Assembly: GCA_022571295.1 (NCBI GenBank)
Contig: JACZYA010000004.1
Coordinates: forward strand, 1-55,995
Length of the DNA stretch: 55,995 nt
Source: Acidobacteriota bacterium
GTDB taxonomy: Bacteria; Acidobacteriota; Terriglobia; Acidiferrales; 2-02-FULL-67-57
Reading direction: 5' to 3'
A program made the position numbers and the translations under genes. This document shows positions 34,779 through 36,123 of the stretch, one piece after another; position 1 is the stretch's first letter, and each line of letters opens with the position of its first letter. A model generated the notes under the pieces. The model did not search any database. It saw nothing but the letters and a program-made list of their open reading frames with translations, and was not told the DNA's origin.

Positions 34779-35311
34779 AGCTGGTCTTTCTTGTTGTTCG
34801 CCTGTACGGGCTCAAAGAGGACATCGAACTCTGCCAGCAACTCGTAGTTTTCCAGCAGCACCGGGTCGTCCAGCAGCTCGAGGCTGTCTCCCTCGGCGGA
34901 TGCTGTCTCCGGCGCAGTGTCCGGCACCACCGTCGGCTCCACCTGCGCCCGCTCGGGGGCACTCCCCTGCTCTTGGAGCGGCACCGGCGAGGTAAGCTGC
35001 CAGAGACCGACGGCAACCATCACCAACACCACCAGAGCCGCTCCCCAGGCCGGGCGCAGACGCAGCCACGCCCATCGAGGCAAAGGCTCGGGCTGTGCGC
35101 GCAAGCGTTCCCGCACAGCCGCATCGAAAGCCGGCGAAGGCTCGACCGCTTTCCACTCCTCCAAGACGCCCAGCAGAGCGCGGAACTCCGCCATCTGCGT
35201 CCGGCAGGCGGAGCAGTCCGCCAGATGGCGGTCCAACCGCTGCCGCTCGGCGTCGCTGAGACGCGCATCGAGATACGGAATAATCTCGGCTTCTTTCAGA
35301 TGCTTACTCAT
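34775..35311 (-). CDS. Anti-sigma factor with N-terminal zinc-finger (zf-HC2-like)
   Basis: MSKHLKEAEIIPYLDARLSDAERQRLDRHLADCSACRTQMAEFRALL (HxxxCxxC), one TM segment (WGAALVVLVMVAVGLWQL); start overlaps sigma stop as ATGA. Confidence 0.88.
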   Translation of the reverse strand: MSKHLKEAEIIPYLDARLSDAERQRLDRHLADCSACRTQMAEFRALLGVLEEWKAVEPSPAFDAAVRERLRAQPEPLPRWAWLRLRPAWGAALVVLVMVAVGLWQLTSPVPLQEQGSAPERAQVEPTVVPDTAPETASAEGDSLELLDDPVLLENYELLAEFDVLFEPVQANNKKDQL

Positions 35312-35898
35312 GGCTGTGCTCCCGCCAAGGGCCGTAGCTTGACCCGGAGCGCTTCGTAGGCCCGGAAGAGAAGCGACTTGAGCGCGCTCTCCGAGCATTC
35401 CAGAATGGGGGCGATTTCCGCATAGTCCAAATCCTGGTACTTGTGCAGCAGGACGGCCAAGCGCTGCTTTTCCGGCAACGACTCGACCGCCGCGCGAATC
35501 TGGCGCGCCCGCTCGGCTTCCAGCAGCCGCTGCTCGGCGGTGGGGCCGGGGACGGACAACTGCGCCACCTGCGGGTCGGCGTCCTCGGCGTCGATGGAGG
35601 TCTCTCCCCAGCGCCGCATGCGACCGTCGCGGAGGGCGTTAAGGGCCACGTTGGTGGCAATGCGGAACAGCCAGGTGGTGAACTTAGCCCGCGGCCGGTA
35701 GTTCCGGCGGGCGCGAAAGACGCGGAGAAAGACTTCCTGCGCCAACTCTTCCGCCAGGGCCGGCTCGCGAACCAACCGATAGACAAAGTGCACAACCGGC
35801 GCCCGATATTTGCCCAGCAAATGGTCGAACGCATGGTCGTCCCCCGCCTGCAGGCGAAGCATCCATTCTTCATCGGTCTTCGCCACCTGCGGCTCCAT
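35308..35898 (-). CDS. ECF RNA polymerase sigma factor (RpoE-like)
   Basis: Sigma2 (DHAFDHLLGKYRAPVVHFVYRLVREPALAEELAQEVFLRVFRARRNYRPRAKFTTWLFRIATNVALNALRD) and sigma4 (LPEKQRLAVLLHKYQDLDYAEIAPILECSESALKSLLFRAYEALR). Confidence 0.95.
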   Translation of the reverse strand: MEPQVAKTDEEWMLRLQAGDDHAFDHLLGKYRAPVVHFVYRLVREPALAEELAQEVFLRVFRARRNYRPRAKFTTWLFRIATNVALNALRDGRMRRWGETSIDAEDADPQVAQLSVPGPTAEQRLLEAERARQIRAAVESLPEKQRLAVLLHKYQDLDYAEIAPILECSESALKSLLFRAYEALRVKLRPLAGAQP

Positions 35899-36007
35899 TC
35901 TATCTAACCCCGTTCCAGCCCTTAAGTTTCGCAGGTTTTCCGCGCGCCAGCATGCTGTCCCTGTCTTTGGTAGTGGGTCAGTTTCACGATGTTAATTTTA
36001 CCGCTGA

Positions 36008-36033
36008 GCCCGGCGGCCTGCCTGCCGCCGGGC
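36008..36033. repeat. Perfect 10-bp stem palindrome inside the MITE
   Basis: GCCCGGCGGC-CTGCCT-GCCGCCGGGC. Confidence 0.8.
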
Positions 36034-36050
36034 GGACAAGCGGCACAAAC

Positions 36051-36074
36051 GCCCCGTGGCAGGTGCCACGGGGC
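36051..36074. repeat. Perfect 11-bp stem palindrome inside the MITE
   Basis: GCCCCGTGGCA-GG-TGCCACGGGGC. Confidence 0.8.
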
Positions 36075-36123
36075 TCGGCGCGAGCTTCCCATTTCCAAAA
36101 TGTCCCACTACCCTGTCTTTCTG

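Follow-up and report, generated by a model that had tools for sequence, protein, structure and literature searches.

A MITE-like element with IS1-type ends and a REPIN-like body beside an ECF sigma factor gene of an acidobacterium

IS1-family insertion sequences (NF033558/PF03400) encode a DDE transposase of the IS1 profile between ends that begin GGT and generate 8-bp duplications; classical members are compact, at about 0.7-0.8 kb, and larger members exist. ISAba3 relatives (IS1 family) have 24-bp ends (GGTGGTGTTTC...) and 8-bp duplications, and the 0.11-kb MITEAba12 shares its ends with a parent IS and has a duplication of the length typical of that IS (PMC6382973). A second kind of mobile repeat, the REPIN, has been described as a RAYT-linked doublet (PMC3116915), and REPINs and BIMEs comprise two inverted REP hairpins with their tails outward, lie between genes and are linked to RAYTs (PMC3116915; PMC2817692). 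Most REPs, though not all, carry GTAG/CGTC tags, and in A. variabilis and H. neapolitanus REP dimers are regularly enclosed by a second inverted repeat, forming longer palindromes whose outer part has been assigned to no transposon (PMC3733652).

Here we describe an acidobacterial element that is, with high confidence, a MITE with a REPIN body, which an IS1-like DDE transposase would have inserted in trans and which spread as one DDE element. Its probable parent resembles the IS1 family in transposase profile, in ends beginning GGT and in 8-bp duplications, but differs from that family and its derived MITEs in encoding a transposase of about 280 aa as one ORF that scores below the NCBIfam IS1 cut-off, in measuring 1.85-3.8 kb with cargo genes, which does not match the compact classical size, and in having gone undetected in the genome that bears the MITE. 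Like MITEAba12, the element is short, has ends in common with a parent and has a duplication of the length typical of it; unlike here, the parent of MITEAba12 is resident and is a different IS with 9-bp duplications, and the available portion of that account does not mention a REP body (PMC6382973). The body is built like a REPIN or BIME, intergenic and RAYT-linked, yet it is enclosed by DDE-type ends, has spread with 8-bp duplications and carries the tag CTCGGCG/CGCCGAG in place of GTAG/CGTC. The enclosing second inverted repeat recalls A. variabilis and H. neapolitanus, except that here both a transposase and target duplications could be tied to the outer repeats. Mobile insertion cassettes (MICs) match the architecture not of this element but of single-gene, transposase-less units in relatives, which differ from MICs in bearing IS1-like ends.

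The window analyzed is the whole 55,995-nucleotide stretch at the head of this text. Within it, the 144-bp element, a non-autonomous unit of what we call family A, occupies positions 35969-36112 (no strand assigned), is bounded by GGTAGTGGGTCAGTTT...AAAATGTCCCACTACC and is flanked on both sides by CTGTCTTT (35961-35968 and 36113-36120, no strand assigned), the two copies agreeing at 8/8 positions. The left terminal inverted repeat, GGTAGTGGGTCAGTTT, is of IS1-like type and lies on the plus strand at 35969-35984; the right one, at 36097-36112, reads GGTAGTGGGACATTTT on the minus strand, and the two agree at 14 of 16 positions. An earlier note made from the letters alone had proposed a MITE-like element of this size with these ends and this duplication, no coding content and two internal palindromes, all of which we confirmed: no credible gene lies inside, and the palindromes at 36008-36033 and 36051-36074 have stems of 10 and 11 bp, respectively, both strongly GC-rich and stable. 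The element is thus short, non-coding and bounded by inverted repeats, as expected of a MITE. The folding z-score was -5.6 for RNA and -4.4 for DNA, and not one of 200 shuffles reached the same stability. An Rfam search of the region matched no family, and a promoter and terminator scan returned nothing, including no terminator with a T run.

Mobility is supported by copies elsewhere in the same genome, which was searched as a 3.24-Mb assembly of 287 contigs with 98.6% completeness. About 40 places are related to the element, full-length copies being 74-96% identical, and the aligned copies have common ends, a conserved body and a length mostly between 141 and 208 bp. At the 43 two-ended sites, a count that takes in the window element and other end-sharing families, the flanks agree at 6 or more of 8 positions in 20 (6 perfect, 9 at 7/8 and 5 at 6/8), values slightly favoured by the choice of the best end pair at each locus; when left and right flanks were instead paired across different copies, agreement of at least 6/8 occurred in 1% and of 8/8 never. 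A multi-copy element whose copies have common ends and differing 8-bp duplications is what the earlier note had asked for as confirmation of a non-autonomous transposon. A clear duplication is missing at about half of the sites, which fits old copies and also some mis-set ends. A crude coding-potential caller, applied to 26 copies with longer flanks, showed no predicted gene interrupted by any of them, and the copies adjoin many unrelated genes. The full-length element was not found in any of the 60 relatives searched from the same order, so the history of its assembly cannot be traced through them.

The insertion site itself can be compared with an empty one. The element lies between a ZIP metal transporter gene (PF02535, 36124-36852) and an ECF sigma factor gene (Sigma70_r2/r4, 35308-35898), both on the minus strand and with the boundaries previously claimed; a zf-HC2 gene of anti-sigma type follows the sigma gene downstream. 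Gene order at this locus (YchF-like GTPase, ZIP, ECF, zf-HC2) is maintained throughout the taxonomic order, and in the 22 relatives with adjacent ZIP and ECF genes the gap measures 45-190 bp and holds no such ends. In the window the gap is 225 bp, and 73 bp once the insert and one duplication are removed. The empty site for which the earlier note had suggested looking is therefore found in 22 syntenic relatives.

In these relatives the ECF start is preceded by GCAACTTT and then, after about 16 bases, by GGGTTnGATA, and the window has a corresponding -35/-10-like pair, with GCGAAACTT at 35924-35932 and GGGTTAGATA next to the ECF start. This probable ECF-type promoter (35899-35932, minus strand) is uninterrupted. 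Since the duplication ends 28 bp upstream of the conserved motif, the element did not land in the promoter, and the suggestion that it occupies the promoter region of the sigma gene was not upheld; it sits upstream of an intact promoter. That position could be read as a hairpin region selected for regulation at the sigma promoter rather than a mobile element, which we regard as extremely improbable, because relatives have the same gene order and promoter with no element and because copies stand beside many unrelated genes. As a primary explanation, regulation is refuted by the copies and the empty sites, while a secondary effect on expression is possible: the insert places a strong RNA hairpin between the ZIP gene and the intact ECF promoter, which may have a mild insulating effect. 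Separately, the strong conservation of the ECF-type promoter directly before the ECF start, in the window and in the syntenic relatives alike, suggests autoregulation, and a leader that is very short if present at all.

To the transposon reading, the relatives add a candidate source of the ends. A scan of the 60 order relatives for the end motif revealed paired ends at kilobase distance, among them transposase-bearing elements of 1852, 2103, 2175, 2275, 2302, 3172, and 3763 bp whose ends begin GGTAGTG and whose duplications are 8 bp, with 9 bp readable in one, a length of 8-9 bp as in the IS1 family. The 1852-bp element (L113, 640-2491) is flanked by CGTCAGCG and has a 16-bp end identical to the left end in the window, and the 2103-bp element (L141) has CCGGGACA on both sides. 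Their transposases are 270-290 aa long with invariant D68, D140, and E204, and score 28-36 bits against PF03400, above its cut-off of 24.1. The best NCBIfam profile is that of IS1 (NF033558) at 56-70 bits, below the cut-off of 100, so the parent is best described as IS1-related rather than as a confirmed IS1 member. Pfam matches to IS1 were initially weak and at the level of the order, and several proved to lie inside end pairs.

The full-length IS with the same ends that the earlier note had sought therefore exists in relatives, as an IS1-like element, but its transposase went undetected in the MITE-bearing genome by profile searches, and within the family only short fragments of it turned up, in two relatives. 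The MITE thus has ends in common with an autonomous transposon of relatives, not of its own genome, and the parent is deduced from relatives of other genera. Since no matching transposase was detected in the genome, its MITE family is probably dormant and immobile there. Two other candidate parents were rejected: IS256 (PF00872) is absent from the genome, as is IS1595 (PF12762), whose ends in relatives (GGGCAATAATATACTTGAC) are unlike those of the element.

The internal palindromes point to a second source. The earlier note was right that they are real but overlooked that both belong to a single REP family and are one repeat inverted, made up of a stem, GGCAGGTGCC, the complementary stem and then GGCTCGGCG, with the tails outward. 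Hairpin 1 (36002-36033) reads GGGCTCAGCG on the minus strand and has the outward tail CGCTGAG on the plus strand; hairpin 2 (36052-36080, plus strand) is CCCCGTGGCAGGTGCCACGGGGCTCGGCG. Across 44 distinct hairpins from this genome and related Acidobacteria, a set that excludes matches from unrelated named genomes, 97.5% of cells pair and 53 double-sided changes are found versus a shuffled mean of 15.8, a count reached in 0 of 500 shuffles, and the pairing breaks down when its register is shifted. The hairpins were collected with a pattern that fixes the loop and tail and leaves the outer stem free, and the variable pairs fall in this free part. Shuffles of the window contained no hairpin motif. 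The body is accordingly an inverted pair of REP hairpins whose variation preserves structure.

The same motif family flanks RAYT genes. A RAYT gene on contig C256 of this genome (NF047646, 94.8 bits, cut-off 80) lies between two inverted hairpins, and in a second genus, in Acidobacteriia bacterium AH_259_A11_L15, a RAYT gene 66% identical to it is flanked by five, so that the REP family is linked to RAYT genes at two loci only, in two genera. Relatives have such hairpins either alone or in inverted pairs separated by some 35-57 bp, in both cases away from IS1-type ends, and the pair in the window is oriented alike and similarly spaced. The hairpins carry neither a GTAG nor a CGTC tag; because most but not all REPs carry them, the tag serves as a family label and not as a strict requirement. 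Among named genomes, a 25-base hairpin scan requiring exact identity gave no match. A looser scan recovered the repeat from two named Acidobacteria records; it also gave about 20 single hits elsewhere, most of them lacking a proper stem, which we took as chance. By these sequence comparisons, the body is REPIN-like and the element a REPIN inside IS1-type ends.

Hairpins are present in many bacterial MITEs, and stems as GC-rich and stable as these might simply be terminator-like hairpins of a plain MITE with no REP ancestry. We consider this improbable, as the scan showed no T-run terminator and the loop, tail and covarying stems are common to a repeat that several genera have outside any MITE and that borders RAYT genes. 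Conversely, the whole unit might have been mobilized by a RAYT, the outer repeats being merely part of it, given that hairpin-flanked RAYT genes exist in the genome. Y1 HUH transposases of the RAYT type are not known to make target duplications, whereas the ends of this element are flanked by 8-bp duplications; moreover, the same ends bound DDE transposase genes with no REP at all, and REP pairs of relatives lack the ends, which leaves RAYT mobilization of the unit very improbable.

A separate small repeat was seen in the loops of REP hairpins. The sequence CTTCG[A/G]CnnnGCTCAGGACA, 20-odd bp long with varying inner triplets and a constant loop position, occurs at L025, L031, L043, L045, L046, L076, L077, L078, L079, L087, L088, and other loci, and hairpins of other families contain it as well (L024, L090); it may represent a small quasi-palindrome that recurrently enters hairpin loops.

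The composite of REPIN and IS1-type ends could have arisen by capture of a REPIN by such ends, or by a REPIN landing between them in an existing MITE, and would then have spread as one DDE element in this lineage. In the window, the ends were most likely recognized by an IS1-like DDE transposase supplied in trans, which would have brought the composite in between the ZIP and ECF genes with staggered 8-bp cuts, whose repair would yield the duplicates of CTGTCTTT. That such a transposase moved this copy we infer from the ends, the duplication, the copies, the empty sites and the same-ended autonomous elements. The REPIN origin of the body rests on the hairpin family, its orientation, the similar spacing, the end-less pairs and the RAYT linkage, and the order of events is inferred: the spread of end-less REPINs across genera, and the restriction of the composite to this genome among those searched, favour the REPIN as the older part.

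The same ends were also seen around other contents. In this genome, a second end-sharing MITE family (L082 1521-1660, L083 1318-1518, L084 1967-2106) and a third (L081 1655-1801, L089 about 1383-1511) have hairpin pairs of different sequence, with tails GTCCAA/TTGGAC and CACCGAG/CTCGGTG, and two end-sharing units (L074, L075) have no such hairpins. In relatives, IS1-like-ended units of 0.5-1.0 kb lack a transposase and mostly hold one unrelated gene each, encoding a beta-barrel protein, a glyoxalase, a cupin, a RibD-like reductase, an unknown protein or others. Perfect 8-bp duplications flank five of them (L121 318-1316, L122 290-1031, L123 286-958, L124 244-929, L125 307-825), and 6/8 duplications flank L119 351-1176 and L128 323-1056. 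Two autonomous IS1-like elements (L117 396-3567, L118 450-4212) carry toxin-antitoxin-like cargo, one set comprising a HigB-like toxin and an HTH protein, the other pairing an HTH protein with a SocA/Panacea-domain protein. The smallest unit seen, in Acidobacteriia bacterium AH_259_A11_L15 (L129 426-460, contig C188), is 35 bp of two ends head to head (GGTAGTGGATCAGTTTGACAAACTGACCCACTACC). The cargo thus takes in three or more sequence types of hairpin pair in this genome, single genes without a transposase, and a transposase with toxin-antitoxin-like genes; tentatively, IS1-like ends might act as a general-purpose platform in this acidobacterial order that repeatedly captures and moves gene- and repeat-sized cargo.

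Collectively, the element is an ordinary kind of mini-transposon with an unusual hybrid build drawn from two unrelated mobile systems. One mobile repeat, the RAYT-linked REPIN, rides inside another, the IS1-type MITE, and both source systems could be identified by sequence. This build is a concrete candidate for explaining the unassigned palindromes around REP dimers in earlier reports. Additionally, the single genes between the same ends in relatives suggest a cassette-like route of gene mobility in Acidobacteriota that can be surveyed directly.
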